Origin: an uncultured Actinomycetes bacterium
Lineage (GTDB): Bacteria > Actinomycetota > CADDZG01 > WHSQ01
Length of the DNA: 64,000 nt
Assembly (NCBI GenBank): GCA_937863385.1
Contig: CALMBW010000010.1
Span: forward strand, 1-64,000
Direction: 5' to 3'
Shown here one piece after another: positions 46,029-63,775 of this stretch; within the stretch, counting starts at the first letter, position 1; every line of letters begins with the position of its first letter. The notes beneath the pieces were generated by a model. The model ran no database searches, was not told the origin of the DNA, and saw nothing but the letters and a program-made list of their open reading frames with translations. The position numbers and the translations under genes were made by a program.

Positions 46029-46684
46029 CAGATGCCTCCTGTCGTGGTCGAGGAATTGATCGGGTGTGATGCGAAGAGAAGCGCCCGCACGACGATCCGA
46101 AGCGTGTCGCTTCCTTCTGGGGCGCAGGAGGTGAGGGTCAACAGTGATGTCTTCATCGGGTAGTCGCGGATAGGGGACCAGTCGGTCGGCTCAACGACCC
46201 ATGGCCGGGCGATGACCCGGTATTCGAACTTTTCGACAGGTGTCGTGAGCACGATCAGGTCGCCGGGTATCAGCTCATCGATCCTGTTGAAGGGAGCTCC
46301 ATAGGTTGTCCTATGTCCTGCGATCGAGACGTTGCCGCGCTCCCCGGGGTAGGCGGTTTCCTCGTAGTGGCCGGCGCCATTGCGCAGTGCTTCAGCAGTC
46401 GTTCCCTCGACAACGACGACATCGATACCAAGCCGTCGCACTTCGAGACGCGTTAAAGCCCTGCCGCGCCGGATGGCGCGATCTGAGTAGGGTTCGGCAG
46501 CGCCGATCAGCTGGCGGGAGAGAGCGTCTTGACGGTGGTTCGCCCAGAGATCTGTAGCCGGTGGATAGGCGGACATCCCCGTCCCGCCGAGGAACAAGAG
46601 TGTGGAACAAGCCATCAGGACTCTGCGCGCGGCAGTGGGTCGCGGGCACACTGCGGTCCGGTGACGGACCCTTGGGATGCGCAT
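46025..46684 (-). CDS. Sortase (class E/D-like)
   Basis: A 219-residue membrane-anchored transpeptidase attaching LPxTG proteins to the wall. A hydrophobic segment (about residues 22-42) precedes the sortase barrel with catalytic His (VSIAGHRTTYGAPF), Cys (LLTLTSCAPEG) and Arg (DTLRIVVRAL). The TLTSC motif with this spacing is typical of class D/E enzymes. The ATG at 46684 follows a G-rich stretch; an AT-rich motif shared with other promoters lies upstream at 46731. Coupled to the LPxTG gene. Confidence 0.9.
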   Translation of the reverse strand: MRIPRVRHRTAVCPRPTAARRVLMACSTLLFLGGTGMSAYPPATDLWANHRQDALSRQLIGAAEPYSDRAIRRGRALTRLEVRRLGIDVVVVEGTTAEALRNGAGHYEETAYPGERGNVSIAGHRTTYGAPFNRIDELIPGDLIVLTTPVEKFEYRVIARPWVVEPTDWSPIRDYPMKTSLLTLTSCAPEGSDTLRIVVRALLFASHPINSSTTTGGIW

Positions 46685-46844
46685 AGGCCCCCCCGGCCGA
46701 CTAACGAGACTGGAGCGTCTTCGAATCTGCGAATATCTATATATGGCCGAAAGGTCCCTGGCTAGTGGGATACTCCGCTCGAAGGGGTGTTTCCCACCCA
46801 TAAGGGTTGGTCCGCGGGGTTGGGAGCCCCTAACTTCGCAGCTT

Positions 46845-47504
46845 CTACTCGTCGGATTCCACGTAGAGGATCCCGCCATCGTTCAGGACCGTGTAGGTCT
46901 TGAGTGCGTCGTCTGCGGGCCCACGCAAGCGTTCTCCGGTGGTGACGTCGAATTGGCTCCCGTGTCGGGGACACGTGACAACCGGACCTTCGAGGGCTCC
47001 TCGGGATAGCTCGGCACCGGCGTGAGGACATGTGTCCGCGACCGCATAGATCTCGTAACCCACGTGGTAGAGGGCGATCGGCGATGCCAGGGCTCCATCT
47101 TCGATGCGCGCGATCAGGCCGAGCCGTCCGTCGAACTCTCTCGCCGGACCAACGCGGATCCGTTGCTTGCTGCGCTGGCCGTAGTCATCGAGGAACCGAC
47201 CCAGGTGCCGATGGACGGTTCCGGTGCTCGATATCAGATCGGCTCCGGCTGATTCCGCGGCCGCCCACAGCTCGGCATCGGGGACGCGGATCGCACCGAT
47301 GACTGGGATGTCCGGGCTGTCACGCTTCCAAGCAGCAATCGCCTCGAGCGCGCCGGGAAGTGAGATGTCGATAAGGATGGCCCTGGGGCGACCGGGCAGA
47401 TCGTTAGGCAAAGCCGCATCTTTCGAGGACAACACCACCATCTCTAGATCTCGAGCGATCTTCTCGATGCGCGCCTGAAGCACGTGGTCGTCGATCACGC
47501 ACAC
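46845..47504 (-). CDS. Receiver-like domain fused to a Rieske domain
   Basis: A 219-residue protein. Residues 1-115 look like a response-regulator receiver (VCVIDDHVLQARIEKIA, AILIDISLPGALEA, later AGADLISSTG), with the acceptor Asp in LIDIS but the usual conserved Lys apparently missing. Residues 118-219 form a Rieske domain with C-x-H (DTCPHAGAEL) and C-x2-H (VTCPRHGSQFDV), the set needed for a [2Fe-2S] cluster. The GTG start at 47504 has no good ribosome site. A fusion of signalling and redox domains is unusual; it might couple cluster state to a partner. Confidence 0.8.
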   Translation of the reverse strand: MCVIDDHVLQARIEKIARDLEMVVLSSKDAALPNDLPGRPRAILIDISLPGALEAIAAWKRDSPDIPVIGAIRVPDAELWAAAESAGADLISSTGTVHRHLGRFLDDYGQRSKQRIRVGPAREFDGRLGLIARIEDGALASPIALYHVGYEIYAVADTCPHAGAELSRGALEGPVVTCPRHGSQFDVTTGERLRGPADDALKTYTVLNDGGILYVESDE

Positions 47505-47556
47505 GAGCGGGGGTCCCGAGGGTTCCGGGTACTCCTGCCCAGTTGTGGAGTCCGTC

Positions 47557-47790
47557 CTATGCTCCTTTCAGCCGGTCGACGGCTCGGCGAACCGCCCGGT
47601 CCTTGATCGCCACGGCCTTGAGTTTCTCAACCGACTTCTGATGGAAGACTTGCACGCCCGCGATCTTCTCTTCCCCGTAGAAGACCTGACCTCTTAGTCC
47701 GCTCGGATCGTCATGTATGCGTAGCGCAAACGTGATCCCTTCAACCTCGAGCTCGGTCTCCGGGAAGATCTTGTGGTCTTCGGTTTCCAT
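47557..47790 (-). CDS. Small protein of unknown function
   Basis: A 77-residue charged protein (METEDHKIFPETELEVEGIT start, then KSVEKLKAVAIKDRAVRRAV helix) with a GAGGAGG site before its ATG. The layout is beta strands followed by one long helix. No cysteines or membrane segments, no recognised family. It lies between a zinc-ribbon-like gene and the receiver-Rieske gene in one orientation, probably one operon. Confidence 0.65.
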   Translation of the reverse strand: METEDHKIFPETELEVEGITFALRIHDDPSGLRGQVFYGEEKIAGVQVFHQKSVEKLKAVAIKDRAVRRAVDRLKGA

Positions 47791-47806: not shown

Positions 47807-48184
47807 TCAGTGTTCCCAGTCTCCCGACAGCTTCAGAGTGTCCGGATCAAGTTTGGGTTCCACGGTGCGTAGCTGGTTCAGGAATTCCACACCATGTCTC
47901 GAGCACAGCTGCCAGGGCATGGGATCCCCACTCTCGTGTAGGTGCACGCTGCGGGAGTGTTCCACCTCTATACCGCAGACGCAGCAGTGTCCCATCCTGC
48001 GCGCGCCGAGCTTCTCCATCGTTCGGTCCCAGCACGGTGAGCACATCAGTCCGGAATCGTCCTTCAATAGGAAGTCACCAGGGTGGTAAAGGAAGCGAAC
48101 CGCCCCGCGCCCGGGGGTGCTGCTGGTAGGCGGTCCCGAGAGAAAGGCCCCGCAGAGGTCGCAGCGCAGATCGGCAACAGTCAT
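47807..48184 (-). CDS. Cysteine-rich zinc-ribbon-like protein
   Basis: A 125-residue protein with four CxxC-type pairs: RCDLCGAF, MCSPCWD, HCCVCGIE and a C/H pair LCSRHG, spaced as in two treble-clef or ribbon zinc sites. Function unknown. It heads a three-gene minus-strand unit with the 77-residue protein and the receiver-Rieske protein, and is divergent from the 48220 gene that leads into the sulfur cluster. Confidence 0.7.
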   Translation of the reverse strand: MTVADLRCDLCGAFLSGPPTSSTPGRGAVRFLYHPGDFLLKDDSGLMCSPCWDRTMEKLGARRMGHCCVCGIEVEHSRSVHLHESGDPMPWQLCSRHGVEFLNQLRTVEPKLDPDTLKLSGDWEH

Positions 48185-48219: not shown

Positions 48220-48603
48220 GTGCATGTCTCGCTGTATCCTGATGGACGCAACGCGTTGAGACAAGCCGCGGATGCGAACGATGCTTGCGGGGGTGCTCTT
48301 GTGGATGTGATCGTGGCGCCGTCGGTGCGGACCGTACTCGAACGTCGAGGCGAGCAGGATGTGACCATCGACGTCACGCTTCGCTTCTGCGGAGGGCTGG
48401 TCACGAAAGACGCGGTGGCCCTGGCAGGTAGACCCCCAGAAGGGATGGGGTTCCATCTCATCCTGCACGACGGGCTTCGCCTCTTCTGGCGTCAACGTTT
48501 CGAGATCGAAGGATCCGACCCAACGGTGGATTCCCGGGTGACCCCTAAGAAGGTACGCCTGTTCACACGTGGCTCCGAGATGGTTGCCGAAGCGTCCTAT
48601 TGA
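48220..48603 (+). CDS. Protein of unknown function upstream of the sulfur cluster
   Basis: A 127-residue frame from a GTG at 48220 with no clear ribosome site. The middle (VTIDVTLRFCGGLVTKDAVALAG, then GFHLILHDGLRLFWRQRF) looks like real beta structure and the composition matches neighbours, so I treat it as coding. No family recognised. It ends 116 bases before tusA. Confidence 0.5.
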   Translation: MHVSLYPDGRNALRQAADANDACGGALVDVIVAPSVRTVLERRGEQDVTIDVTLRFCGGLVTKDAVALAGRPPEGMGFHLILHDGLRLFWRQRFEIEGSDPTVDSRVTPKKVRLFTRGSEMVAEASY

Positions 48604-48674: not shown

Positions 48675-48719
48675 CTGAGGACCTGGGGGCAGGTCCTTTT
48701 GTTACAAGGGGGGTGGGTG

Positions 48720-48959
48720 GTGGCAGTCGTCGAATCAGCCGACGAAGTCTTGGACTGCACGGGGATGTCGTGTCCGCTTCCAGTCATAAAGACTGCGCAA
48801 GCGATCAACGGCATCTCGAGCGGGCAGGTTCTCGAGCTTCTCGCTACGGATCCTGGGGTCGAACCGGACATGAACGCGTGGACTCGTCGCACCGGCAACG
48901 AGCTCCTGGGGATCGAGAAGCGAGAGGACGTGTTCCACGTCTTCATCCGCAAGGCTTAA
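48720..48959 (+). CDS. tusA: TusA sulfur-carrier protein
   Basis: A 79-residue TusA-family protein with the sulfur-carrying Cys in the diagnostic CPLPVIKT motif (GMSCPLP near residues 16-22). The GTG at 48720 follows AAGGGGGG. In sulfur oxidisers TusA delivers sulfane sulfur to the sHdr complex. First gene of the run of same-strand, mostly overlapping genes that extends to the window edge. Confidence 0.93.
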   Translation: MAVVESADEVLDCTGMSCPLPVIKTAQAINGISSGQVLELLATDPGVEPDMNAWTRRTGNELLGIEKREDVFHVFIRKA

Positions 48960-48981
48960 CGGCGACGATGGGTGAGCTCCT

Positions 48982-49362
48982 TTGAGTTCGGAGGATGAGG
49001 GCAGGGTCCTCTATGTCCAAACTCACGGTTCCGATGACCCGGGTCGATCGGCAACCCCATTCTTCCTCGCGGCTTCGGCTGCTGCGATGGGATGCGAAGT
49101 GGGCATCTATTTCACGATGTATGGCCCCACTCTTCTTCGGCGTGACGTCATCGACAAGATCGGACCGAAGGGGGACCGAGGGCAGCCGCTTCGTTACTTC
49201 ATCGAACAGGCAACCGACCTGGGCGTGAAGCTGTACGTGTGCCAGCCCAGTCTTGACCTCAACGATCTGGTGATCGACGACCTTATCGATGGTGTCGAGA
49301 TGATCGGTGGAGCGGCATTCAACGACCTCGCGATGGAAGCGGACGCCGTGGTGGCGTTCTAG
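48982..49362 (+). CDS. DsrE-family sulfurtransferase (DsrE3-like)
   Basis: A 126-residue DsrE-like protein: RVLYVQTHGSDDPGRSATPFFLA start and a single likely sulfur-binding Cys in VKLYVCQPSLDL near residue 82. TTG start at 48982. tusA-dsrE3 pairs commonly precede sHdr genes, where the DsrE3 protein passes sulfur to TusA. It is distinct from the DsrE-like protein at 17.2 kb (longer, different cysteine context). Confidence 0.87.
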   Translation: MSSEDEGRVLYVQTHGSDDPGRSATPFFLAASAAAMGCEVGIYFTMYGPTLLRRDVIDKIGPKGDRGQPLRYFIEQATDLGVKLYVCQPSLDLNDLVIDDLIDGVEMIGGAAFNDLAMEADAVVAF

Positions 49363-49371
49363 AGGAGGGAT

Positions 49372-50085
49372 ATGTCACAGACCGGAGCGCTCTACAAGGC
49401 GGAAGCCGTAGCTGGGTACGCAGACGTCCCTTTAGAGGAGAAACAGCGTCTCTTCGATGAAGTCAAAGCCGACATGCGTTTCCCCGACTACATCTACGGC
49501 TGCTACGAATGCGGGATCTGCGTCGCCGTTTGTCCTTCGGCGCGGTTCTACGACTTCAGTCCTCGGCGTATCGCTCAAGCCGTAGCTCGCGAGGATGCAG
49601 AACTCGTTTACCAACAGATGCAGGAAGACATCTGGGAGTGCTCCCAGTGTTTCTCGTGCCTCCGGTGTCCGCGAGGCAACAATCCCGGCGGGATCATCAC
49701 GATCATGCGAGAGGTCTCCATCAACAATGGCCTGGCTTCAGCACGTGAGGCTCTCGAGGGTTACACACGCATCATCTACAAGATCATGTCCACCGGTACT
49801 CAGGTGTCACCCGACATGCTTCAGCCGGACGCCTTTCCCGACTGGGGTCCTGAAGTCAAGGATGTGTCGGACAAGCTCGAGTTGTGGCGCCGGGCGCTTC
49901 CGCCGGAGACCCACCATACGACCACCACGGGTTGGGAGGTCTCCGACAAGACATTGGTAGAGCTCTACTTGATCTGGCATAAAACCGGCGCTCTCAAGAT
50001 GATCGAAGAGGTTGATGAGGGGCTTCACATGATCCTCGAAGAGGTCATGGAGGAGCGACTCGAAGAGGAGGGGATCGAGGTATGA
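49372..50085 (+). CDS. sHdrC1 iron-sulfur subunit
   Basis: A 237-residue HdrC-like electron-transfer subunit of the sulfur-oxidising heterodisulfide-reductase-like complex. Two [4Fe-4S] motifs are visible: C44, C47, C50, C54 (CYECGICVAVCP) and C90, C93, C96, C99 (CSQCFSCLRCP), the second with CRG instead of the usual P after the last Cys. ATG after AGGAGGG. It overlaps hdrB1 by 4 bases. Confidence 0.92.
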   Translation: MSQTGALYKAEAVAGYADVPLEEKQRLFDEVKADMRFPDYIYGCYECGICVAVCPSARFYDFSPRRIAQAVAREDAELVYQQMQEDIWECSQCFSCLRCPRGNNPGGIITIMREVSINNGLASAREALEGYTRIIYKIMSTGTQVSPDMLQPDAFPDWGPEVKDVSDKLELWRRALPPETHHTTTTGWEVSDKTLVELYLIWHKTGALKMIEEVDEGLHMILEEVMEERLEEEGIEV

Positions 50086-51293
50086 CCATTCCCGTTGAAG
50101 CTTTACTGAAAAAGAAGGAGAACAAGAGTCGCTTCGATCGTGACGCGGAACTGGCGGCCGGAGACGCGAAGCGGCGCGATTTCCACGAAGAACTTTTCGA
50201 GCTGGAAGAAAAGGGAGAGTGGATCGTTCAGCGGGTTCCCGAACCATACGTCGAGGTTCCTACGAAGTACGGTCGTATGAAGAAGGTGCCGAAGCAGATG
50301 ATGTGGCATCACAAGTCGTGCGGGCAGTGTGGCCACATCCCCGGTTATTCAACTTCGATCTTCTGGGTGCAGCGGAAGTTGGGGGTTGACTACAACGATC
50401 CTACCGATCAGACCTCTTGTACCGCCTGGAACTACTACGCCAGCGCTACGTCGAACGCCGCCGCTCAGGCGGCAGTGGCGGGAAGGAACTTCGCGGCCGC
50501 CTATGAAACCGGCTACTTCCCCCTGATCCATTGCGGAACCTCCTACGGGCACTACAAGGAGGTGCGAGAGGAGTTACTGCTCCACGGGGAGCTGCGCAAA
50601 GAAGTGCGAGAGATCATGAAAACCCTCGGCAAGCCGTTGGTCATGCCCGAAGAGATCGTGCACTACTCGGAGTGGTTCTACGCGATGAAGGATGAGATCG
50701 CCAAGCATCAGGTACGTGACTTCTCGGATATCGCAGTGACGGTGCACCCCGCATGCCACTACTACAAGCTCGTCGAGCAGGACGCGATCTACGACCCGGA
50801 CGTCTACGGCGGCCAGAGGACGGCGATCGTCTCTGGGGTGGCTACCGCCCTCGGCGCAGAGGTGCGGGATTACTCGACTTGGTTCGACTGCTGTGGGTTC
50901 GGGTTCCGCCACATCCTCGTGCAGCGTGACTTCACTCGAAGCTTTGCGACCCAACGCAAGATAGAGAAGATGAAGGAGGAGGCGAACCCCGACGTGACCC
51001 TGACGCACGACACTGGTTGCGTCACCACTCTTGATAAGAGCCAGTTTGCGGCTCAGGCACACGACCGCAATGTCGGTGTTCCGGTTATGAGCGAGGCACA
51101 GTTCGCCGCTCTGGCGATGGGTGCCCATCCCTACAAGGTGTGCCAGCTCCACTGGCATTCTGCCGACTACAGGCCCTTGCTCGAGAAGATGGGGATCGAT
51201 TGGCGAGCGGCATGGGCGGAGTTCGAAGCTGAAGTAGAGCGACTTGAGAAGGGCGAGATCGACTTTCTGACGTGGGCAGACGTCGACGCCTGA
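50082..51293 (+). CDS. sHdrB1 subunit
   Basis: A 403-residue HdrB-like catalytic subunit. Cysteine landmarks include C80 and C83 (KSCGQCGHIPG), C113 (TSCTAWNYY), HPACHYYK, the double cysteine WFDCCGFGF and HDTGC, the pattern that builds the unusual cubane clusters of HdrB proteins. An N-terminal extension of about 75 charged residues is present, as in other sHdrB1 proteins that I recall. ATGA overlap with hdrC1. Confidence 0.92.
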   Translation: MTIPVEALLKKKENKSRFDRDAELAAGDAKRRDFHEELFELEEKGEWIVQRVPEPYVEVPTKYGRMKKVPKQMMWHHKSCGQCGHIPGYSTSIFWVQRKLGVDYNDPTDQTSCTAWNYYASATSNAAAQAAVAGRNFAAAYETGYFPLIHCGTSYGHYKEVREELLLHGELRKEVREIMKTLGKPLVMPEEIVHYSEWFYAMKDEIAKHQVRDFSDIAVTVHPACHYYKLVEQDAIYDPDVYGGQRTAIVSGVATALGAEVRDYSTWFDCCGFGFRHILVQRDFTRSFATQRKIEKMKEEANPDVTLTHDTGCVTTLDKSQFAAQAHDRNVGVPVMSEAQFAALAMGAHPYKVCQLHWHSADYRPLLEKMGIDWRAAWAEFEAEVERLEKGEIDFLTWADVDA

Positions 51294-51331
51294 GTTCCCG
51301 AAGTTAGAACCCGTACTGACAAGGAGATCGG

Positions 51332-52399
51332 ATGTCGAGCGACAGGGTAGTGGTGGTCGGAGGGGGCCCGGGAGGCATAGAGGCAGCGCGCGGCGTCGCA
51401 GGACTGGGACTTGAAGTGACGATCGTAGAGAAGCTCGAACGGCTCGGTGGCACGCCGATCTCGGAGAACTATGCCGCGCTGACGCCCAACTTCGAAGATG
51501 CCGAAGCCGCCATGGACCGGATGATCGAAGCGATGCTGGCACTGCCCGGCGTTGATGTTCGTACCAGCAGCACGGTTAGTGCGTGTGAAGGGGAGAGTGG
51601 CGATTTCAAGGTCACGATCTCCGGAGCTGCCGGTGATGAGACTATCGACGCGGGCGCCGTGATCCTCGCGACCGGGTTCCAGCACTTCGATCCGGGCCGG
51701 GAAACGCAGATGTACGGCTACTACGAGCATCCTGATGTGATCGCCCTGCAGGATCTCGAGGCGATGTTGAAGGATCACAATGTTGTTCGTCCTTCGAACG
51801 GTGAGGCACCCAAGCGGGTCTGCTTCGTGCAGTGCGTCGGCAGCCGAGACCGTCATATCGGCAATGAATATTGCTCGAAGGTTTGCTGTGGGGTTGCTTC
51901 GAAAGAAGCGATCGAGATCCGCAAACTCCTTCCCGACTGCAAGGTCTTCATCTTCTACATCGACATGCGTATGTACGGCTACTGGGAGAACCAGATCTAT
52001 TGGCCCGCGCAAGAAGAGCATCACGTCCAGTACGTCAAAGGGATCATCACCGAGGTCCTGAAGAAGGATGGGCGGCTCTTGGTGCGAGGCGAGGACACGA
52101 CTATGGGAAGGCCGATGGAGGTCCTGATGGACCTGGTGGTGCTTTCGGTGGGAATGGAACCATCTCGCGGTACTCGAGAGATGGCCGGTGTGCTCGGTAT
52201 CCAACAGAACAAGTACGGGTTCATCGAGGCGGCGAACCCTCCTCTCGACACGGTGACCACATCCCGGGAGGGGATCTACGCCTGTGGGGCGGCGCTCGGG
52301 CCGGCAGACCTCGAGGACACGATCTCGTCCGCCGGCGCGGCCGCCATGAAGGCGGTCTCTCTGTTGAGGTCCGGCAAGACCGCAGCCGCATCCAGCTAG
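51332..52399 (+). CDS. sHdrA flavoprotein subunit
   Basis: A 355-residue HdrA-like flavoprotein: FAD-binding VVVVGGGPGGIEAARGVAGLG at the N-terminus, a cluster motif FVQCVGSRDRHIGNEYCSKVCC in the middle, and the closing GIYACGAALGPADLEDTI of the flavin fold. It lacks the extra ferredoxin domains of methanogen HdrA, as expected for the sulfur-oxidation type. ATG after AAGGAGA. Central subunit linking HdrB/C pairs. Confidence 0.93.
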   Translation: MSSDRVVVVGGGPGGIEAARGVAGLGLEVTIVEKLERLGGTPISENYAALTPNFEDAEAAMDRMIEAMLALPGVDVRTSSTVSACEGESGDFKVTISGAAGDETIDAGAVILATGFQHFDPGRETQMYGYYEHPDVIALQDLEAMLKDHNVVRPSNGEAPKRVCFVQCVGSRDRHIGNEYCSKVCCGVASKEAIEIRKLLPDCKVFIFYIDMRMYGYWENQIYWPAQEEHHVQYVKGIITEVLKKDGRLLVRGEDTTMGRPMEVLMDLVVLSVGMEPSRGTREMAGVLGIQQNKYGFIEAANPPLDTVTTSREGIYACGAALGPADLEDTISSAGAAAMKAVSLLRSGKTAAASS

Positions 52400-52445
52400 T
52401 TGGTCGCTGACGACCTAACACCGACGAGGAGACGAAGGGGGGTTC

Positions 52446-53177
52446 GTGGCCGGCCAGATAGTCGACACCCCAACCGCGCAGGAGTTCATGCAAGAGATCT
52501 CCAAGCAGGTGTCCGAGGATGAGCTTGAATCGATCGCGGCGAGCCTCGAGGCCAAGGCCCAGGGTTTCCACGACCTGTTGGGCCATGGACGAGCCGCCGC
52601 CCTCGATCGGGACGGTCTGCGGAGGGTCCTTCGGAGCGTCTTTTCGAGCCGGCGAAAAGCCGACGCGATCATCGATCTGGTAGGAGAGCGGGAGTTGATC
52701 GAAGGCATCTCTTACCTTCTTGACTCGACCGATGATCTTCCCGAGCGTCTCGACCATTTCGCTGCACTGTTGATCGATTTCCCCGAGGCTGCATTCGACC
52801 TTCCCGGTGAGCTGCTTCATTTCACCTATCCGGATCGCTTCTGGCTCTGGTCTCGGTGGATGTGGGATCCCCGGATCGAGACAGGTTCCCTGAGGCTGGT
52901 TGTCGAGGAGGAGTTCGATCTCCAAGGCGACAGCCGGGGTGAGGTCTATTTCAAGGTCGGGGAAGCGATCGCCTTCGTCAACGAGACGGGGAAGGCGGCA
53001 GGGTTCACGTCGATCGGACGAGGACTTCTTGGGATCGACATCTTTCTGGCATGCGTGTACGCGGTCTATATGTACACGGTCCTGCGTCTGCGCATGACCC
53101 AGGAGTTCAACAAGATCGTGCCGCCACTCCCCGAGTTGGTGCGTCGACTGCTCGGTATCCACAAGATGGAGGTTTGA
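52446..53177 (+). CDS. sHdr-cluster conserved hypothetical (Hyp)
   Basis: A 243-residue protein at the place where sHdr clusters carry their conserved hypothetical gene, between hdrA and the second hdrC/hdrB pair. GTG start after AAGGGGGG. It is mixed helical, no cysteines, with one mildly hydrophobic segment near residue 195 (GIDIFLACVYAVYMYTVLRL) and a FDLPGELLHFTYPDRFWLWSRWMW motif. Function unknown; membership is argued from position. Confidence 0.85.
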   Translation: MAGQIVDTPTAQEFMQEISKQVSEDELESIAASLEAKAQGFHDLLGHGRAAALDRDGLRRVLRSVFSSRRKADAIIDLVGERELIEGISYLLDSTDDLPERLDHFAALLIDFPEAAFDLPGELLHFTYPDRFWLWSRWMWDPRIETGSLRLVVEEEFDLQGDSRGEVYFKVGEAIAFVNETGKAAGFTSIGRGLLGIDIFLACVYAVYMYTVLRLRMTQEFNKIVPPLPELVRRLLGIHKMEV

Positions 53178-53183
53178 GGTTCT

Positions 53184-54488
53184 ATGCCCACAGGTGGAAA
53201 GAAGAATCCGGTCGAGTCCTTCGAACACGAAACTGTGACGGTCAAGTCAACGATCTCGGGGCGTGATTGGGAGCTCCCAGGTATGTGGAACCGGATGTTC
53301 GAGCAGCGAGTGATCTTTGACTACGACACCGCCGTGATGGAAAAGATCGTGGAACTCGAAGGCGGGGAGTCTCTGGATTGGTGCTATGGATGCGGGAAAT
53401 GCATCCCGGTGTGCCCGGTCGACATAGTGGGCGAGTACGGACCTCGAAAGGTACATCGCAAGGTTCAGACCGGCGTTGACCTCTTCAACGATCCTGATCT
53501 TTGGTTGTGCACCACTTGCATGAACTGTCTGCGCGTCTGTCCGAAGGAAGTCGACATGATCCAGATCATGCCGGCGGTGCGTGAGGTAGCCGTATCTGAA
53601 GGCAACGTACCTTCAGAGCTCCAGGACGTCTTCCAGAACACTTTCCGATACGGTAACGCCCTCGGAGAAAGTCCGCGCAAGCGCCACGCATGGACGAAAG
53701 GCGCGGGTGTCGATGTAAAGGTGCTTCCTTCCGACCCCTCTCCGGTGGATGTCCTGTTCTACGTCGAGGACTACTGGTCCTATCACCCTCGTGGTCACGA
53801 TGCGGCCCAGGCGTGCGCCCGCATCTTCGCTGCACTCGGCATCGACTACGGGATCTTGGGTCCCGAAGAGAAGACGCTCGGAGACTCGCAGCGTCTTGCG
53901 GGAGAGAAGGGTTTGTTCGAGGCGTTGATGGAAGACGTCGTGGCGACGCTTGATAAGTACGAGTTCAAACGGATCGTGACCCCCGACCCGCATGGCTTCA
54001 ACGCTCTCGTCAAGGTCTATCCGACCTACGGCCATGAGTACGAAGTGCTGCACTACACGCAACTTCTGGCGCCGTTGGTGGACAAGATCGAGTGGAAGAG
54101 CGAGGCCAACTACAAGGTCACATTCCACGATCCGTGCTATCTGGGTCGCCACAACGGTGAATACGACGCCCCCCGGACGTTGTTGCAAGCGATCCCCGGC
54201 GTTGAGCTGGTCGAGATGGGACGCTGCCGGGAGAACGGATATTGCTGTGGCGGCGGTGGGGGAGCTATGTGGCTGGATTCGTTCACGGGCAACCACACGG
54301 TCGAGAGGCTGTCGGAGCGTCGCGTCAAGGAGGCGGCGGAGGCGGGGGCCGATGTCCTCGCGGTGTGCTGCCCTTATGAGGTCTCGCGCTTTGAGGACGC
54401 CGCCAAGTCGACCGGTAACGAAACCCTTCTGGTAAAGGACATCGTGGAACTCATGGACGAAGCGATGGGTAATGGATCTCAGGCGTGA
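53184..54488 (+). CDS. Fused sHdrC2-HdrB2-type iron-sulfur protein
   Basis: A 434-residue protein joining an HdrC-like domain (C67, C70, C73, C77; C109, C112, C115, C119) to an HdrB-like domain with a CCG motif (HDPCYLGRHN followed by GYCCGGGGGAMW). In many sHdr operons hdrC2 and hdrB2 are separate; here there is one continuous frame. A similar layout is found in DsrK and in the larger HdrB3-type subunit that I recall from sHdr clusters carrying etfAB, so either label is possible. No membrane segment. Confidence 0.88.
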   Translation: MPTGGKKNPVESFEHETVTVKSTISGRDWELPGMWNRMFEQRVIFDYDTAVMEKIVELEGGESLDWCYGCGKCIPVCPVDIVGEYGPRKVHRKVQTGVDLFNDPDLWLCTTCMNCLRVCPKEVDMIQIMPAVREVAVSEGNVPSELQDVFQNTFRYGNALGESPRKRHAWTKGAGVDVKVLPSDPSPVDVLFYVEDYWSYHPRGHDAAQACARIFAALGIDYGILGPEEKTLGDSQRLAGEKGLFEALMEDVVATLDKYEFKRIVTPDPHGFNALVKVYPTYGHEYEVLHYTQLLAPLVDKIEWKSEANYKVTFHDPCYLGRHNGEYDAPRTLLQAIPGVELVEMGRCRENGYCCGGGGGAMWLDSFTGNHTVERLSERRVKEAAEAGADVLAVCCPYEVSRFEDAAKSTGNETLLVKDIVELMDEAMGNGSQA

Positions 54489-55494
54489 GGATGCTCTGCG
54501 GGTGCTGGACTTCGGTTCTCAGACACCCCTGCGATCGCAGACCTTGTGGCATGCGGTCGCACACGGCGTCTCTGCGGGAGAGCCGCCGACGCTGTCCTTC
54601 GTCACGCCATCGGCCCCTTACGTGTCGATCGGATACCACCGCAGGCTCAAGGAGATCGATCTGGATTCGTGTCGTTCCCACGGGTTACCCGTCTTCCGCC
54701 GGATGGTCGGAGGAGGACCCGTCTACCTCGATCGTAACCAACTCTTCTTCCAGATCTCTCTGCCATCGGAACTCGTGCCGGCCTTCGGCCCCCGGGCGAT
54801 GCGATACCTGCTTACCCCCGCGGTCGAAGCCTTCAACGACGTTGGTGTCCCCGCGACTTTCGACGAGCGTGGCGATATCTCCGTGGGCGAAGCGAAGATC
54901 TCCGGCATCGCCGGGGGGCAGATCGAAGGATGCTCGCTTGCCGTCGGCAATCTCGTTCACGCGTTCGACTACGACGCAATGGCGATGGTTCTCGGTGTTG
55001 CCGAGGAACCCCTCTACACCGAGTTGGTCCGGATGATGCGCACATACTTCCATCCGACCCCTGTTGACCAAGATGCATTCAAGGCAGCGTTGATCGCTCG
55101 TTACGCGTCGGCCTTTGATCTCGAGCCTGGATCTGGTCTCTTGTCGGATCACGAACGCGCCCAGCTGTCGGAACTCGATGCCCGTTTCACAGACCCCGGA
55201 TGGCTCTCGGGCCCCGATCGGGCCGATCCCCCCGCCCGCCAGATAAAGATCCGATCGGGTGTTTGGGTGTTCTCCGCCCTGCACCAGGACACGAGGGTCA
55301 CGGGGTCTGTGATCGGCGAGCGGTTCGAAAGACTTCACGTCGAGGATCCACTAAGTGATGGGCAGGTTGCCGCGATAGAAGCCGCCCTAGCAGGTGAACG
55401 GATCGACGAGATGGAGGATGTTCTGGCGCCCTTTGGAGCTACCGGCGAACGTGTGGTGGCAGCCATCTCTCGTATCGATGGGAGGAATCTATGA
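54472..55494 (+). CDS. Lipoate-protein ligase family protein (first copy)
   Basis: A 340-residue LplA/BirA-fold ligase with VFRRMVGGGPVYLD (the RRxxGGG lipoyl-AMP loop) and the lysine region VGEAKISGIAGGQI. It is longer than the core LplA by a C-terminal domain of about 80 residues. It probably attaches or transfers octanoyl/lipoyl groups to LbpA, whose gene follows with a 4-base overlap. It overlaps the end of the Hdr fusion gene by 17 bases. Which step differs from the second ligase at 56.9 kb is unknown. Confidence 0.87.
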   Translation: MDLRREDALRVLDFGSQTPLRSQTLWHAVAHGVSAGEPPTLSFVTPSAPYVSIGYHRRLKEIDLDSCRSHGLPVFRRMVGGGPVYLDRNQLFFQISLPSELVPAFGPRAMRYLLTPAVEAFNDVGVPATFDERGDISVGEAKISGIAGGQIEGCSLAVGNLVHAFDYDAMAMVLGVAEEPLYTELVRMMRTYFHPTPVDQDAFKAALIARYASAFDLEPGSGLLSDHERAQLSELDARFTDPGWLSGPDRADPPARQIKIRSGVWVFSALHQDTRVTGSVIGERFERLHVEDPLSDGQVAAIEAALAGERIDEMEDVLAPFGATGERVVAAISRIDGRNL

Positions 55495-55943
55495 GTGACC
55501 GAGTTGTCGGGGGGTACACGATCGATGTGGACCTCCTCTACGACGGAGAGAGGCACGTCTGGCTTCTGATCTTGGGAGAGGGACGCGCTCGCGTCGGTAT
55601 GGACCCACTGGGCGTGGAGACGATGGGCGACGTCGTGCAGATGTATCTCCAGGAGCCGGGGGTTGCGCTCAACCGCGGTGCCGCTTTCGGAACGATCGAG
55701 GCGGCGAAGTTCGTGGGCCCGCTGACGATGCCGGTGTCCGGAACGATCTTGACCAACAATCAGGCTGTCGCTTCTGACCCGGGGCTTTTGACGAGGGATC
55801 CGTTCGGAGAGGGATGGCTCATCGAGATCGAGCCCAGCGACCCCGCCGAGTTCGATCTGCTGGTGCGAGGTGAAGAGCAGGTCGTGGAGTGGTTCGAGTC
55901 CAAGGTCCGCGACTATGGCGCCAAGGGGATGCTTGCCGAGTGA
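55491..55943 (+). CDS. lbpA: Lipoate-binding protein LbpA (GcvH-like)
   Basis: A 150-residue GcvH-like protein with the lipoylation site at about K73 (GTIEAAKFVGPLTMPVSG). In sHdr-type sulfur oxidation the LbpA lipoyl group carries the sulfur substrate or dithiol between TusA and the Hdr-like complex. It is not a glycine-cleavage protein by context: no gcvT or gcvP gene is present. A second GcvH-like gene starts at 63801. Confidence 0.93.
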   Translation: MSDRVVGGYTIDVDLLYDGERHVWLLILGEGRARVGMDPLGVETMGDVVQMYLQEPGVALNRGAAFGTIEAAKFVGPLTMPVSGTILTNNQAVASDPGLLTRDPFGEGWLIEIEPSDPAEFDLLVRGEEQVVEWFESKVRDYGAKGMLAE

Positions 55944-56947
55944 CCACTTCAGCGATATCCCCGTGGGACGTGCGCCGGGCCAACTTCCCCGACTCGATCG
56001 AGTTCTACGCGCCGGGTCTCAAACGATGGGAATCGTCCGAGTGGATCCCGTCGAACCCGCGTAATTTCCTGCCGATCTCGGTGACCGGCACGGCCTGCGC
56101 ACTGAAGTGTGACCACTGTTATTCGGACAAAGGGGCGAAGGTTCTGGATGGGATGTCGTCGATCGGACGTGATGAAGATCTCTTTGATCTTGCCTCGCGG
56201 CTGAAGGGTCAAGGCAGCACCGGCCTCCTGTTATCGGGAGGCTCTACTCACTCAGGCGGCGTTCCCTTGATCCCTCACCTCCGGCACGTCCCCCGCATCC
56301 GTTCTGAGCTTGGGATGAAGGTGATCGTGCATTCGGGGGTTGTGCATCCAGCACTGGCGGAAGCTCTTGCGGCCGCTGAGGTTGACGGAGTGATGCTCGA
56401 CATCATCGGCGCCCGCGAGACGATCGACGAGGTTTACCACCTCGATCTCTTGCCCGACGACTTCGATCGCGCGCTCGGCCTTCTAGCGGACAAGGGGCTT
56501 CGGATCATCCCGCATATCGTCTGCGGGCTTCATTATGGGAGGTTCCTCGGGGAGCATGCGGCTCTCGACATGATCGCTCGCCACCCAGTGTCGACGGCGA
56601 TCATCGTCGTTCTGGTGCCGCTTATCGGTACAGCGATGGAGAACATCGCGCCTCCTCCCGTGGACGAAGTGATCGACTTCATGGCGGAAGCTCGGATCGC
56701 CCTGCCGGATGTTCCAGTGAATCTTGGATGCGCGCGGCCGATGGGGGAAGTCAAGATCGAGCTCGATCAGGCGGCCATAGATCACGGACTGAACGGGATC
56801 GCGTATCCCTCGGAGGGAGCTATCGCGTATGCGAGAGCCAAGGGACTCGAACCCAAGCTCTACGAATACTGCTGTTCGATGACCTGGGCGGGCGACGAGG
56901 GCGAGAGTTTCTCGACCGCCGATATCGAGCGATTGGCGCCGGCGTGA
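55940..56947 (+). CDS. Radical SAM protein, LipS-type lipoate assembly
   Basis: A 335-residue radical SAM enzyme with the cluster motif CALKCDHCY near residue 53 and a C-terminal cysteine pair YEYCCSMTW that could bind an auxiliary cluster. GTG start overlaps the lbpA stop by 4 bases. Placement between lbpA and lipoate-ligase genes fits one half of the LipS1/LipS2 pair that inserts the two sulfur atoms into octanoyl-LbpA; I cannot say which half from the sequence. Confidence 0.82.
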   Translation: MTTSAISPWDVRRANFPDSIEFYAPGLKRWESSEWIPSNPRNFLPISVTGTACALKCDHCYSDKGAKVLDGMSSIGRDEDLFDLASRLKGQGSTGLLLSGGSTHSGGVPLIPHLRHVPRIRSELGMKVIVHSGVVHPALAEALAAAEVDGVMLDIIGARETIDEVYHLDLLPDDFDRALGLLADKGLRIIPHIVCGLHYGRFLGEHAALDMIARHPVSTAIIVVLVPLIGTAMENIAPPPVDEVIDFMAEARIALPDVPVNLGCARPMGEVKIELDQAAIDHGLNGIAYPSEGAIAYARAKGLEPKLYEYCCSMTWAGDEGESFSTADIERLAPA

Positions 56948-58056
56948 TAGAGCACTGGAGACTCCTGCAACACGACGGGGCTGAGGCAGCTCGCGGTCTC
57001 GCCGTGGACGAGGCCCTCATGAGCGGATACGGGCGTGGGTCCACATCGATGCCGGCCCCCTCGTTGCGCCTGTACACCTACGCCACTCACTGCGCGCTGG
57101 TGGGGCGTTACCAGAACGTCGAAGCAGAGGTCGACCTGGCGGCGTGTGAAAGAACGGGAACGCAAGTGGGCCGCCGCCCCACCGGCGGCGGCGCGATCAT
57201 CATGGGGGAGTCTCAGCTCGGAGTGGCGTTCGTGTCGCGGGCCCCTGCCGAGCGCCCGAAGGACCTCATCAAGACCTATGCCAAGGGGATCGTTCGGGGC
57301 CTGGCCGAGCTAGGGATAGAGGCGACCTTTCGAGGCAAGAATGACTTGGAGGTGGGGGGTCGCAAGATCGCCGGTCTCGGTCTGTATCTCGACGAACACG
57401 GAGCCCTGCTTTTCCACTCGAGCATCCTGGCCGATCTGGATATCGAGTTCATGCTCGAGGTCTTGCGGATCCCGGCCGCGAAATTGGGTGATAAGGCGAT
57501 CGACGCGGTTTCCGACCGGGTCACGACGGTGACCCGGGAAACGGGGGTGTCGTATTCCGCAACCGAGCTCAGATCGGTGATCGCTGTTGGATTCGAAAAG
57601 GAGTTCGGTGTTTCGCTCTTTTCGGTCGATCTAACCGACACGGAAACGAAGAGGGCGGACGTGCTCGAGCGGACTAGATACTCGGATCCGGGGTGGGTGT
57701 TCCAAAGGAGTCCATCACCCGACCGCCAAGGTACGGCCGCTTTCAAGACGCCGGAGGGGTTCGTCCGCGTCCATATCGCATTGGAGAACGGCGTGATCAA
57801 GAGCGTTCTGTTCACGGGAGATTTCAACGAGCTTCCCGAAGCTCTCGTCAGGGCCGAGTCTGCGCTGCGCTGGGTGCGACTGGATCCTGAGAGGGTTTCC
57901 GCGATCGTCGAAACCGCCTTGGGCGGCGATGAGGTCCTGCAGATCTCGTCCGAAAAGATCGTGCAAGCAGTTCTCGAGGCGGGCGAAAGGGCATCGACTC
58001 GCGACCTCGCTCATCCCGATCGACAAGGGTCCTGCTACTTCCCGGAGGTGGGCTGA
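56944..58056 (+). CDS. Lipoate-protein ligase sLpl(AB)-type (second copy)
   Basis: A 370-residue ligase with VGRRPTGGGAIIMGE, the active lysine in GRKIAGLGLY and HSSILADLD, followed from about residue 240 by an LplB-like accessory domain (GTAAFKTPEGFVRVHIALENG, SVLFTGDF). The N- plus C-domain arrangement is that of the sLpl(AB) ligases linked to sHdr. GTG start at 56944 overlaps the upstream radical SAM gene; the frame upstream of it is a shadow. It ends overlapping the next radical SAM gene by one base. Confidence 0.88.
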   Translation: MIEHWRLLQHDGAEAARGLAVDEALMSGYGRGSTSMPAPSLRLYTYATHCALVGRYQNVEAEVDLAACERTGTQVGRRPTGGGAIIMGESQLGVAFVSRAPAERPKDLIKTYAKGIVRGLAELGIEATFRGKNDLEVGGRKIAGLGLYLDEHGALLFHSSILADLDIEFMLEVLRIPAAKLGDKAIDAVSDRVTTVTRETGVSYSATELRSVIAVGFEKEFGVSLFSVDLTDTETKRADVLERTRYSDPGWVFQRSPSPDRQGTAAFKTPEGFVRVHIALENGVIKSVLFTGDFNELPEALVRAESALRWVRLDPERVSAIVETALGGDEVLQISSEKIVQAVLEAGERASTRDLAHPDRQGSCYFPEVG

Positions 58057-59174
58057 TGGCGGCTATGAAGACGCTTCCCTTGGTTGTTCCCGGCGAGGTC
58101 TATGACCCATCACACGTGAGTCCCGACTGGATCAGGATCTCCTATGCCAGTGCTATCGCCCTGAGGTTCAAGTCTGGGCGGTTCACCCGCGATTTCGAGT
58201 TCGGTGGGATCAACCTGCTCCTCAACTACAGTGAGGGCTGCAAGTCTGACTGTGCTTATTGCGGTCTGGCCCGCACCCGCCCGGGCCTCTACGAAGAGAA
58301 GTCTTTCATCAGGGTGGATTGGCCGCTCGTTGAAACGGATGAGTTCGTTCGTCGCCTGAAAACCCATGAGGCCCGATTGACGCGCCTGTGTATCTCGATG
58401 GTGACGCACGGCCACTCTTACAAGGACACGGTGGATATCACCAACCGGATCCGTGCTGCGGTGTCAACGCCTCTCTCGATCTTGGTAGCGCCTCCAACGC
58501 TCACGCGCGCGCGGATCGAACACTTCAAGACCATCGGTGTGGACATGATAGGTGTCGGGCTTGATGCTGTGACCGAAGAACTCTTCCACAAGCTCCGTAC
58601 CGACGTTCCGGCGGGAAGCCTCCATTGGGAGAAGTACTGGGAGGTCATCAACGACGCCCGCGATGTTTTCGGTCCCTGGAAGGTGAACGCTCATACATTG
58701 GTTGGACTGGGTGAGACCGACCGAGACCTCGTCGATCTCTTCTCACGCCTTTGCGAGCGGCAGATCTTCCCCTACCTCTTCAGTTTCAATCCCGAACCAG
58801 ACTCGCGGATGGGCGAGCATGCCAAAGCCAGTCTGCGGCGGTGGCGTCGGATCCAGTTGGCTAAGCACCTCATCGAGATGGATGGGTTGCGCAATGACGA
58901 TTTCGGATTCGACGCGCGCGGAGATCTTGTCGAGATCAAGGCCCCTCCGGACCTCGTGTTGCGTGCCGTGGCGTCCGGCGTTCCCTTCATGACGAACGGC
59001 TGCCCCGGGCCCAAGGGGGAGCCGGGATGTACGCGACCTTACGGCTCGTACCGACCTTCGGAGCCGTTCCGTGACTTCCCGTTCCTTCCCACGAAGGAGG
59101 ACGCGAAAGGTATCGATCTCGATCTCGCACTTGAAGGATTGATAGGGCTGGACCGACACAAGGTAGGTGACTGA
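58056..59174 (+). CDS. Radical SAM protein, LipS-type lipoate assembly (second)
   Basis: A 372-residue biotin-synthase-like radical SAM enzyme: cluster motif SEGCKSDCAYCGLARTRPG near residue 68, VGLGETDRDL in the barrel and a C-terminal NGCPGPKGEPGCTRPYGSYRP segment with cysteines likely to bind an auxiliary cluster that donates sulfur. Partner of the radical SAM protein at 55.9 kb; together they would make lipoate on LbpA. It overlaps etfB by one base. Confidence 0.86.
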   Translation: MAAMKTLPLVVPGEVYDPSHVSPDWIRISYASAIALRFKSGRFTRDFEFGGINLLLNYSEGCKSDCAYCGLARTRPGLYEEKSFIRVDWPLVETDEFVRRLKTHEARLTRLCISMVTHGHSYKDTVDITNRIRAAVSTPLSILVAPPTLTRARIEHFKTIGVDMIGVGLDAVTEELFHKLRTDVPAGSLHWEKYWEVINDARDVFGPWKVNAHTLVGLGETDRDLVDLFSRLCERQIFPYLFSFNPEPDSRMGEHAKASLRRWRRIQLAKHLIEMDGLRNDDFGFDARGDLVEIKAPPDLVLRAVASGVPFMTNGCPGPKGEPGCTRPYGSYRPSEPFRDFPFLPTKEDAKGIDLDLALEGLIGLDRHKVGD

Positions 59175-59941
59175 TGGCCGACATGATCGTGTTGCTAAGA
59201 CAGGTGCCCGACCTGGTCGAAGAGCTGGAGCTCAACGACGACTCGACCGACGTCGAGAGGGAATTCATGAAGTTCGTGCTTTCGGAATGGGATGACTACG
59301 CACTCGAGGAAGCGCTTCTCGTTAAGGAGGCATCTCAGGGGTCCGTGACCGTCGTGGCCCTCGACGATCCAGATGTCGATCAGGTCCTGTACACGGCTCT
59401 CGCCAAAGGGGCCGACAAAGCGGTCAAGCTGACCGGCTCGGAAGAGGGGTGGATCGACTCGCACCAGCGCGCTCGGACCATCGCTTCATGGATGAGGAAC
59501 CAGACCTACGATCTCGTGCTTACGGGGGTGCAGTCGGTCGAGGACATCGATGGTCAAGTGGGAATGCTGCTGGCCCAGGAGCTTCAGCACCCCCACGTGT
59601 CGGTCGTCGTTTCTGTGGAAACCAAGAACGGCTCGGCGCGCGTCACTCAGGAGTTCGGTGGTGGACGCTTCTCCGAATTGGATGTGCAGCTGCCTGCTGT
59701 GCTCGGGATCCAACAGTCTCGTCAGGCACCTCGCTACGCTCCGATCAGCCGGGTCAGGCAGGCACAACAGGCGGGCGGACTCGAGGAAGTCCCGACGGAA
59801 GTCTCCGGCGGGTCCGGCCTGACCGTCCGGCGCCTGTACGCGCCGGAGTCGACCGATCACGCCGAGATGCTTGAGGGTTCGGCCGACGAGGTCGCGGACA
59901 AGATCATCGAGCTGCTCCGCTCGCGCGGACTGATCAAGTAG
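59174..59941 (+). CDS. etfB: Electron-transfer flavoprotein beta subunit
   Basis: A 255-residue EtfB: start MADMIVLLRQVPDLVEELEL, DDYALEEALLVKE, and DLVLTGVQSVEDIDGQVG (nucleotide loop), with DVQLPAVLGIQQSRQAPRYAPI near the end. Together with EtfA it carries electrons on FAD. Its position directly after the lipoate genes suggests that it accepts electrons from the sHdr-LbpA system. Confidence 0.92.
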   Translation: MADMIVLLRQVPDLVEELELNDDSTDVEREFMKFVLSEWDDYALEEALLVKEASQGSVTVVALDDPDVDQVLYTALAKGADKAVKLTGSEEGWIDSHQRARTIASWMRNQTYDLVLTGVQSVEDIDGQVGMLLAQELQHPHVSVVVSVETKNGSARVTQEFGGGRFSELDVQLPAVLGIQQSRQAPRYAPISRVRQAQQAGGLEEVPTEVSGGSGLTVRRLYAPESTDHAEMLEGSADEVADKIIELLRSRGLIK

Positions 59942-59950
59942 GAGGGCGCT

Positions 59951-60901
59951 GTGGCAAGTGACGTTCTGGTGCTGGTCGAGCACATCGATTCCGAGTTAAC
60001 CGATACCAGCTACGAACTGGTGGGCAAGGCCAAGGACTTAGCAGGAGGGTGGAACGGCGAGGCGGTTGCCCTCGCATTGGGGTCGGTTGACACATCGGAG
60101 CTCGCGGCCGATCGCGTTCTCAAGATGGCCCATCCGTCCCTCGACAACTACACTCCCGAGGCTTGGCTCGAAGCGTTGCACGCCGTTGTGCAGGAAAGAG
60201 ATCCAAAGCTCGTCCTGATAGCGAATAGCACGGTAGGCATGGATCTCGGTGCGGGGTTGTCGGGCAGGTGGGGAAAGCCCATCGCTGCATATGCCTCTGC
60301 CATCACGGGTGAGGACCAAGATGTGGTGGTGACCTCTCAGGTCTTTGGTGGCAAGCTGCTAGCCGAGGCCGTTATCGACGGTGGGCAAGGAGTTTGTACC
60401 GTTATCGCCGGTTCTTTCCCCGGGGAAGCCGGAAAGGGCGGTGGGGCGACGGTCGAGGACCTGACCCCGCCAGCGGCGTTGGGCGAGTCTCGGACGAGTT
60501 TCGTGACGACGATCGAACCCGAAGGTGGCGATGTCGATATCACCGAGTCGCCTCTTCTCGTTTCGATCGGACGGGGGATCGAGTCCGAAGACAATATCGA
60601 GCTCGCCCAGGAGTTCGCGGATGCGATCGGCGCCGCGGTGTCGGCGTCGCGCCCGATCACGGATGCTGGGTGGTTGCCCAAGACGCGGCAGGTTGGCAAG
60701 TCTGGGATGAAGGTGAAGCCCAAGGCATACCTCACGTTCGGCATCTCGGGTGCTCCCGAACATCTCGAGGGGATGCGGGATTCAGATCTGATAGTCGCTT
60801 GCAACATCGACGAGAACGCCCCGATCTTCGATATCGCCCACTTCGGGACGACCACAGATCTCTTCGATCTCTTGCCCGCCTTGACGGAGAAGGTCAAGTA
60901 G
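59951..60901 (+). CDS. etfA: Electron-transfer flavoprotein alpha subunit
   Basis: A 316-residue EtfA with the FAD-binding C-terminal domain (LVSIGRGIESEDNIELAQEFADAIGAAVSASRPI, then KPKAYLTFGISGAPEHLEGM and NIDENAPIFDIAHFGTTTDL). GTG after AGGAGGGC. The FAD signature is complete, so a one-electron or two-electron carrier is expected. It is followed immediately by the membrane iron-sulfur protein that should take its electrons. Confidence 0.93.
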   Translation: MASDVLVLVEHIDSELTDTSYELVGKAKDLAGGWNGEAVALALGSVDTSELAADRVLKMAHPSLDNYTPEAWLEALHAVVQERDPKLVLIANSTVGMDLGAGLSGRWGKPIAAYASAITGEDQDVVVTSQVFGGKLLAEAVIDGGQGVCTVIAGSFPGEAGKGGGATVEDLTPPAALGESRTSFVTTIEPEGGDVDITESPLLVSIGRGIESEDNIELAQEFADAIGAAVSASRPITDAGWLPKTRQVGKSGMKVKPKAYLTFGISGAPEHLEGMRDSDLIVACNIDENAPIFDIAHFGTTTDLFDLLPALTEKVK

Positions 60902-63079: not shown

Positions 63080-63509
63080 TCGCGCTGACGATCTTGCGGA
63101 TCTGCTGGCGGGGAGCCTCTCCCACCGTCTGGCTGAGCTCAAGGCGGTTTCCGAGCGCCTCGAGCGTTTCGCTTTCGAACCCGGAGAAGATGCCCCCGAG
63201 TTCCTCGATGAGGAAGCTGGTTCGGATGCCGCTTTGCGGGATCTGCTTCTCCGTGCCTTGGGCAGGGCTGTAGACCCGTTGAACTTTGCTCTGATCGAGC
63301 AACTCGCTGGTAGTGATGCGTCGGTCGGCGCTCTGGCACGCCACTCGGGCCTTCCGCGCGGCGCAGTATCTGAGCGCATCAACGATCTATTGCAGGTGGG
63401 GCTGGTGGGGCGGACCCATCGTGGAGACGAAGTCGCCCTCACCCCCTCAGGGCGCGCGATCGCCGACCTCGTTGCTTCGGTCGTAGATAAGGGGAGGGGA
63501 TCTTCTTGA
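63069..63509 (+). CDS. Winged-helix regulator of the sulfur cluster
   Basis: A 146-residue protein with a C-terminal winged helix (LNFALIEQLAGSDASVGALARHSGLPRGAVSERINDLLQVGLVGRTHRGDEVALTPSGRAIADLV) of the ArsR/MarR type and an N-terminal helical region without cysteines. It overlaps the end of the EMO-like gene by 11 bases. As the only regulator in the operon it probably controls it; the lack of cysteines means that sensing differs from the ArsR-type sHdrR repressor. Confidence 0.75.
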   Translation: MLADRADDLADLLAGSLSHRLAELKAVSERLERFAFEPGEDAPEFLDEEAGSDAALRDLLLRALGRAVDPLNFALIEQLAGSDASVGALARHSGLPRGAVSERINDLLQVGLVGRTHRGDEVALTPSGRAIADLVASVVDKGRGSS

Positions 63510-63775
63510 ACTGCCCGTGGTGCGACTTCGAGGGTACGCCTCGCGAGATGCATGCCCACCTCACTCGGGAGCACGCCGACCGCGTGGAGCTGAGCGAACG
63601 GAATGACCGTCGCTACTACAAGATCGCCTGTCCGGTCTGCGAGTCAACGTATGAGAGAGAGATCAAACCTCGGTACAGGGACCCGGAGTTCTTGAATGAG
63701 TTCCGTGAGGAGATAGCGATGGTCGGTTTTGACATGCTCATAAACCATCTGGTTGCCGAGCACGAGCTGGTCTGA
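63506..63775 (+). CDS. Small zinc-finger protein
   Basis: An 89-residue protein starting with a TTG that overlaps the regulator stop. It begins NCPWCDFEGTPREMHAHLTREH, a C-x2-C...H-x4-H zinc finger like eukaryotic C2H2 fingers, followed by CPVCESTYEREIKPR. The C-terminus has a helix ending in LINHLVAEHELV. Function unknown; its place in the operon next to the regulator suggests a regulatory or assembly role. Confidence 0.75.
   Translation: MNCPWCDFEGTPREMHAHLTREHADRVELSERNDRRYYKIACPVCESTYEREIKPRYRDPEFLNEFREEIAMVGFDMLINHLVAEHELV

Follow-up and report, generated by a model that had tools for sequence, protein, structure and literature searches.

What does a protein do that carries a receiver-like fold and a Rieske iron-sulfur domain in one chain? 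The question is raised by an open reading frame on the minus strand of the window, by which we mean the whole stretch of 64,000 nucleotides of actinobacterial DNA analyzed here (Table 1). An earlier note, made from the sequence alone, had read the protein as a possible pseudo-receiver joined to a Rieske domain, which could sense redox state and pass it on by protein contact, and had named a gene-fusion artefact as the finding that would speak against this.

One reading frame holds a receiver fold and a Rieske domain

The frame is unbroken, with the receiver fold at the N-terminus and the Rieske [2Fe-2S] domain at the C-terminus, so that both domains of the earlier reading do reside in one protein. 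Residues 140-204 matched the Pfam Rieske model (PF00355) above its cut-off, with E = 4e-14. The ligand pattern CxH ... CxxH is intact (Cys159, His161, Cys178, and His181), and the four ligands are invariant in all 23 aligned fusion rows. Ser183, Phe185, and the post-cluster loop RxRGPxD (residues 192-198) are invariant as well. The nearest solved relatives of this half are dioxygenase ferredoxins, with CarAc first, in both PDB sequence search and Foldseek. Features of the bc1/b6f Rieske subunit were absent from the fusion sequence: the cluster loops CPHAG and CPRHG lack the extra Cys pair, there is no hydrophobic N-terminal anchor, and the NCBIfam scores were far below cut-off. At alignment position 154, five residues ahead of the first cluster ligand, 19 of the 23 homologues carry an extra, fifth Cys, and the window protein has Ala.

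The annotated GTG start falls inside strand beta1, which the AlphaFold2 domain model builds from upstream residues. Ahead of this GTG, 21 further codons are open in frame (47505-47567), and an AAAGGAG motif stands six bases before an in-frame ACG codon. Therefore, the true N-terminus may lie slightly upstream, possibly at a non-standard codon, and the uncertainty amounts to some 20 residues at most. Which start codon is used makes no difference to the domain assignment. The full-length structure prediction reached a pLDDT of 86 and a pTM of 0.54, and because of the latter value the model does not fix the relative placement of the two domains.

Table 1. Features of the fusion gene and of the neighbouring sHdr-LbpA locus in the window.
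Feature	Position	Strand	Basis or remark
Pseudo-receiver-Rieske fusion gene	46845..47504	minus	ORF, 219 aa from GTG; architecture shared by about 30 genomes
Rieske [2Fe-2S] domain, about residues 124-219	46848..47135	minus	Pfam, PDB sequence search, Foldseek, conservation
Linker signature xGRxG, residues 125-129	47118..47132	minus	Gly126, Arg127, Gly129 identical in all 23 rows
Degenerate receiver domain, about residues 1-112	47169..47504	minus	hhalign, AlphaFold2 and Foldseek, column counts; Asp46 kept, switch Lys absent
S77, 77-aa gene immediately upstream of the fusion	47557..47790	minus	Homologue adjoins the fusion in G466 and G591
Zn125, 125-aa protein with several CxxC motifs	47807..48184	minus	48% homologue adjoins TusA in G038
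P127, 127-aa gene	48220..48603	plus	Homologue between LbpA and DsrE just ahead of the fusion in G466 and G591
TusA sulfur carrier	48699..48959	plus	Pfam E = 3e-22
DsrE-type sulfurtransferase	48982..49362	plus	Pfam
sHdrC1-like, 4Fe-4S dicluster	49372..50085	plus	Pfam, gene order
sHdrB1-like, CCG domain	50082..51293	plus	Pfam; marker for co-occurrence
sHdrA-like flavoprotein	51332..52399	plus	Pfam
sHdr-associated Hyp protein	52446..53177	plus	Conserved gene order
sHdrC2B2-like fusion	53184..54488	plus	Pfam and NCBIfam
Lipoate-protein ligase	54472..55494	plus	
LbpA, GcvH-like lipoate-binding protein	55491..55943	plus	
Radical SAM protein, LipS1 position	55889..56947	plus	Named by gene order
Lipoyl ligase A/B-type protein, LipT position	56728..58056	plus	Exact name tentative
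Radical SAM protein, LipS2 position	58056..59174	plus	Named by gene order
EtfB and EtfA	59174..60901	plus	
HdrDE-type membrane iron-sulfur oxidoreductase, 725 aa	60902..63079	plus	

The receiver domain appears to have lost its phosphorylation chemistry

The N-terminal half of the fusion has no match to Pfam Response_reg. In hhalign, the 23 fusion homologues were compared with 20 receivers of the same genome, giving probabilities of 92-94% and E of about 1e-7. The AlphaFold2 model of this domain (pLDDT 79.5) has the order beta1-alpha1-beta2-beta3-alpha3-beta4-alpha4-beta5-alpha5, with alpha2 missing. The best 50 PDB matches listed by Foldseek were all receiver domains or receiver-containing proteins, and Spo0F 6ifh matched with E = 8e-7 and a TM of about 0.75. 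As modelled, the N-terminal half is a CheY-like receiver fold. KDPG aldolase, which came up below cut-off in Pfam and NCBIfam and also in PDB, was rejected, because the fold and the profile comparison gave receivers.

Across 24 rows, the phospho-acceptor position holds Asp in 10, Pro in seven, Glu in four, Ala in two, and Ile in one. The switch-Lys position holds Arg in 10 rows and otherwise Ser, Asp, Thr, Val, or Ala; Lys occurs in none. The window protein keeps the acidic Asp6 and the acceptor Asp46, the latter being the Asp within LIDIS to which the earlier note had pointed. Position 72 is Ile, and the switch Lys, already suspected to be missing, is replaced by Thr94. Judged by its residues, the domain does not appear to be a functional phospho-receiver, for which an acidic pair, an acceptor Asp, and a Thr/Ser plus Lys switch were expected. 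A conventional receiver that is phosphorylated and controls the Rieske domain would agree with the retained Asp6 and Asp46, but it is very improbable with Lys in no row and Asp at the acceptor position in only 10.

Conservation in this domain has a clear location. Trp80, Glu84, Gly87, and Gly95 are invariant or almost so. Among 18 representatives, the mean entropy was 1.57 bits for residues 76-107, which form alpha4-beta5-alpha5, and 2.34 bits elsewhere in the domain (Mann-Whitney p = 4e-5). The alpha4-beta5-alpha5 face is the output face of receivers, and the conservation of the domain appears to be concentrated on it. With a degenerate phospho-site and a conserved output face, the pseudo-receiver reading seems right, and both properties are in keeping with the idea that protein contact passes redox state on.

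The fusion recurs in about 30 other actinobacterial genomes

The search for the same domain order showed that about 30 further genomes of actinobacteria, which represent nine families or more, share the receiver-Rieske architecture. Two relatives, complete or almost so, came from the contig scan and belong to other actinobacteria (L036 and L037). In the phylum sample of 397 genomes, the fusion was found in G207, G090, and G038, the G038 copy being cut by a contig end. About 20 of the 42 genomes in the family of G090 carry it, as do 14 of 395 in the class of G090, which adds six families. The classes of G038 and G207 held no further fusions, and the order and family of the window genome held no homologue beyond the window genome itself. 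The fusion is in a single frame in the relatives; it splits only at contig ends and in one frameshifted assembly (L187), and we found no relative with the two domains as separate genes. There is practically no chance that a missed stop or an assembly error produced the fusion, since it recurs in so many genomes and families and nothing was found in favor of such an artefact.

When 85 Rieske sequences were placed in a tree, the Rieske halves of all fusion rows grouped in a single supported clade (98/98). This clade also takes in two outsiders on long branches, so a single origin of the fusion is only likely.

The fusion is a component of the sHdr-LbpA locus

In the window, the fusion gene lies 1.2 kb upstream of the series TusA-DsrE-sHdrC1B1A-Hyp-C2B2-LbpA-LipS1/T/S2-EtfBA-HdrDE, divergent from sHdr and outside its operon. 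Past the window end (L097), the operon continues with LbpA, LbpA, and DsrE, together with ArsR genes, and this continuation holds no second fusion. The genes S77, Zn125, and P127 have no database family. In sHdr loci elsewhere (L162, L179, and L180), they again stand beside TusA or the fusion, and they probably represent additional accessories of the locus that have yet to be described. An 89-aa protein with CxxC/H zinc-finger-like motifs (63506-63775) is conserved, and in almost every sHdr locus inspected it lies between HdrDE and LbpA.

Genes of the sHdr-LbpA pathway lie near the fusion in 30 of the 34 relative stretches, although in a few these are only a lipoate ligase or DsrE; the remaining four are contig ends or contigs shorter than 7 kb. 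The recurrent order is EtfB-EtfA-HdrDE-x63506-LbpA-LbpA-DsrE-fusion, with the fusion usually the last gene of the operon. In seven relatives (L095, L111, L112, L114, L115, L119, and L122), the start of the fusion overlaps the stop of DsrE as TAGTG or TAATG. The conserved TTCATNTA before the start in relatives was considered as an operator, and this was rejected because it is the end of the DsrE frame overlapping the start.

Co-occurrence gives the same picture. Among the 397 genomes of the phylum sample, a close sHdrB1 is present in three, all of which have the fusion, and the fusion is present in one of the 394 others (Fisher p = 4e-7, uncorrected for phylogeny). That one genome, G207, is 84% complete, and a lipoate ligase adjoins its fusion. 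Within the G090 family, both genes are present in 17 genomes, sHdrB1 alone in one, the fusion alone in three, and neither in 21 (p = 9e-8, uncorrected for shared ancestry). The assemblies of the four exceptions are incomplete, and contigs break within the locus. The sHdrB1-only genome, G399, is uninformative on a missing fusion, because its contig ends before the expected place, and the three fusion-only genomes have LbpA and DsrE beside the fusion. By genetic linkage and by co-occurrence with sHdr, the fusion is a component of the sHdr-LbpA locus, a context that the earlier note had missed. Since the protein is tied to this sulfur-oxidation operon, a general redox sensor is no more likely than a dedicated redox partner of the pathway.

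No other genome of the family to which the window genome belongs has the sHdr locus (48699-63079) or the fusion, which suggests lateral gain of the locus, and gain of the locus and the fusion together. Related copies of a sortase gene and of a 626-aa surface-type protein, with 51-54% identity, flank the locus on both sides (44148-46879 and L097:3316-7792).

A candidate redox partner of the sHdr-LbpA system

In open-licence full texts, we found no paper on a Rieske protein with sHdr, with a receiver domain, or with an Acidimicrobium-type heterodisulfide reductase; mention elsewhere is possible. The fusion is so far an undescribed, conserved part of the intracellular sulfur-oxidation gene set of many actinobacteria. 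A conserved [2Fe-2S] protein encoded with the sHdr complex is a concrete candidate for the route by which electrons exit this complex, particularly in the EtfBA-type actinobacterial systems.

About half of our confidence goes to the fusion being a phosphorylation-independent Rieske redox partner, dedicated to the EtfBA-type (group III) sHdr-LbpA system and docked via its pseudo-receiver. The soluble Rieske-type protein would carry a [2Fe-2S] cluster, and the receiver domain, with its phosphorylation chemistry lost, would serve as a docking module through the alpha4-beta5-alpha5 face. The Rieske centre, with the conserved arginine-rich loop beside it, would exchange electrons with a pathway partner, perhaps on the DsrE/LbpA/sHdr side or in the EtfBA-HdrDE branch. 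A receiver fold would then have been recruited for redox work after the loss of phosphorylation. Counting against this redox-partner reading, the supposed docking domain is only moderately conserved, and the fusion gene of the window stands apart from the sHdr operon.

The locus of the window has the group III arrangement with EtfBA that has been described for Actinobacteria and Firmicutes, with sHdr, several LbpA, DsrE, TusA, and EtfBA in one locus, whereas that description has no Rieske or receiver protein, so the fusion is an added component (PMC6067878). A tested case of a pseudo-receiver is FrzS, in which the output face is needed and phosphorylation is not (PMC1974792). The N-terminal domain of the fusion is predicted to be alike, a receiver fold without phosphorylation chemistry whose output face is important, but it has another partner domain and would work in another pathway. 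To our knowledge, and as far as published, the proteobacterial sHdr system works without the fusion protein, so the role of the fusion is either accessory or confined to the group III system.

The main rival sets the idea of the earlier note within the sulfur pathway, as a redox sensor that acts on the ArsR next to the fusion. Here the Rieske domain would report redox state, and the pseudo-receiver would signal by contact to a regulator, such as this ArsR repressor, or would gate DsrE/sHdr. Whether electron relay or redox sensing, the function is one that we infer, and linkage alone fits a carrier and a sensor alike. A convergent ArsR gene adjoins the fusion in most Acidimicrobiaceae-type loci, an ArsR gene comes after it in L036, and pseudo-receivers like FrzS act by their output face without phosphorylation (PMC1974792). 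Nevertheless, a sensor is possible but doubtful. The fusion has no DNA-binding or kinase domain, and its operonic place among redox enzymes, together with the start/stop overlap with the sulfurtransferase, suggests expression as a pathway component. Moreover, ArsR proteins of this pathway in Hyphomicrobium are reported to sense sulfane sulfur themselves. We regard as unlikely a redox-controlled docking switch, in which the oxidation state of the Rieske centre would alter binding of the pseudo-receiver to DsrE or sHdr and so gate sulfur delivery by the electron load of EtfBA-HdrDE. If true, it would be a receiver fold with input from an iron-sulfur cluster in place of phosphate. The neighbourhood of DsrE, LbpA, and genes for lipoylation would also suit an assembly or sulfur-handling accessory, which matures or reduces LbpA, DsrE, or iron-sulfur sites and is not an electron carrier in turnover, but this is quite unlikely with the strongest conservation at the cluster ligands and the cluster loop.

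It is hardly credible that the fusion is a Rieske ferredoxin for a ring-hydroxylating oxygenase, even though its closest PDB and NCBIfam neighbours are dioxygenase ferredoxins such as CarAc. The Rieske oxygenase alpha subunit (PF00848) is absent from 14 of 20 fusion genomes, including the window genome, which is 99.8% complete, and this excludes the role for most carriers; the locus holds no such subunit either. The dioxygenase Rieske ferredoxins CarAc (1vck), HcaC, and BphA3 have the same soluble Rieske fold, with Cys-x-His and Cys-x2-His ligands and no disulfide cysteines. Unlike them, the fusion scores below the NCBIfam cut-offs, has an N-terminal receiver and a Ser183 close after His181, and is linked to sHdr, with no partner oxygenase in most carriers. 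The NirD small subunit has a similar Rieske-like fold and matched weakly (E = 4e-10), but the fusion is below the NirD cut-off and keeps its Cys/His ligands.

The genome of the window also encodes another Rieske fusion, an FAD-dependent oxidoreductase with a C-terminal Rieske domain (L003:184-1731, on contig C9 of G000), followed by a gene for a NarL-type response regulator.
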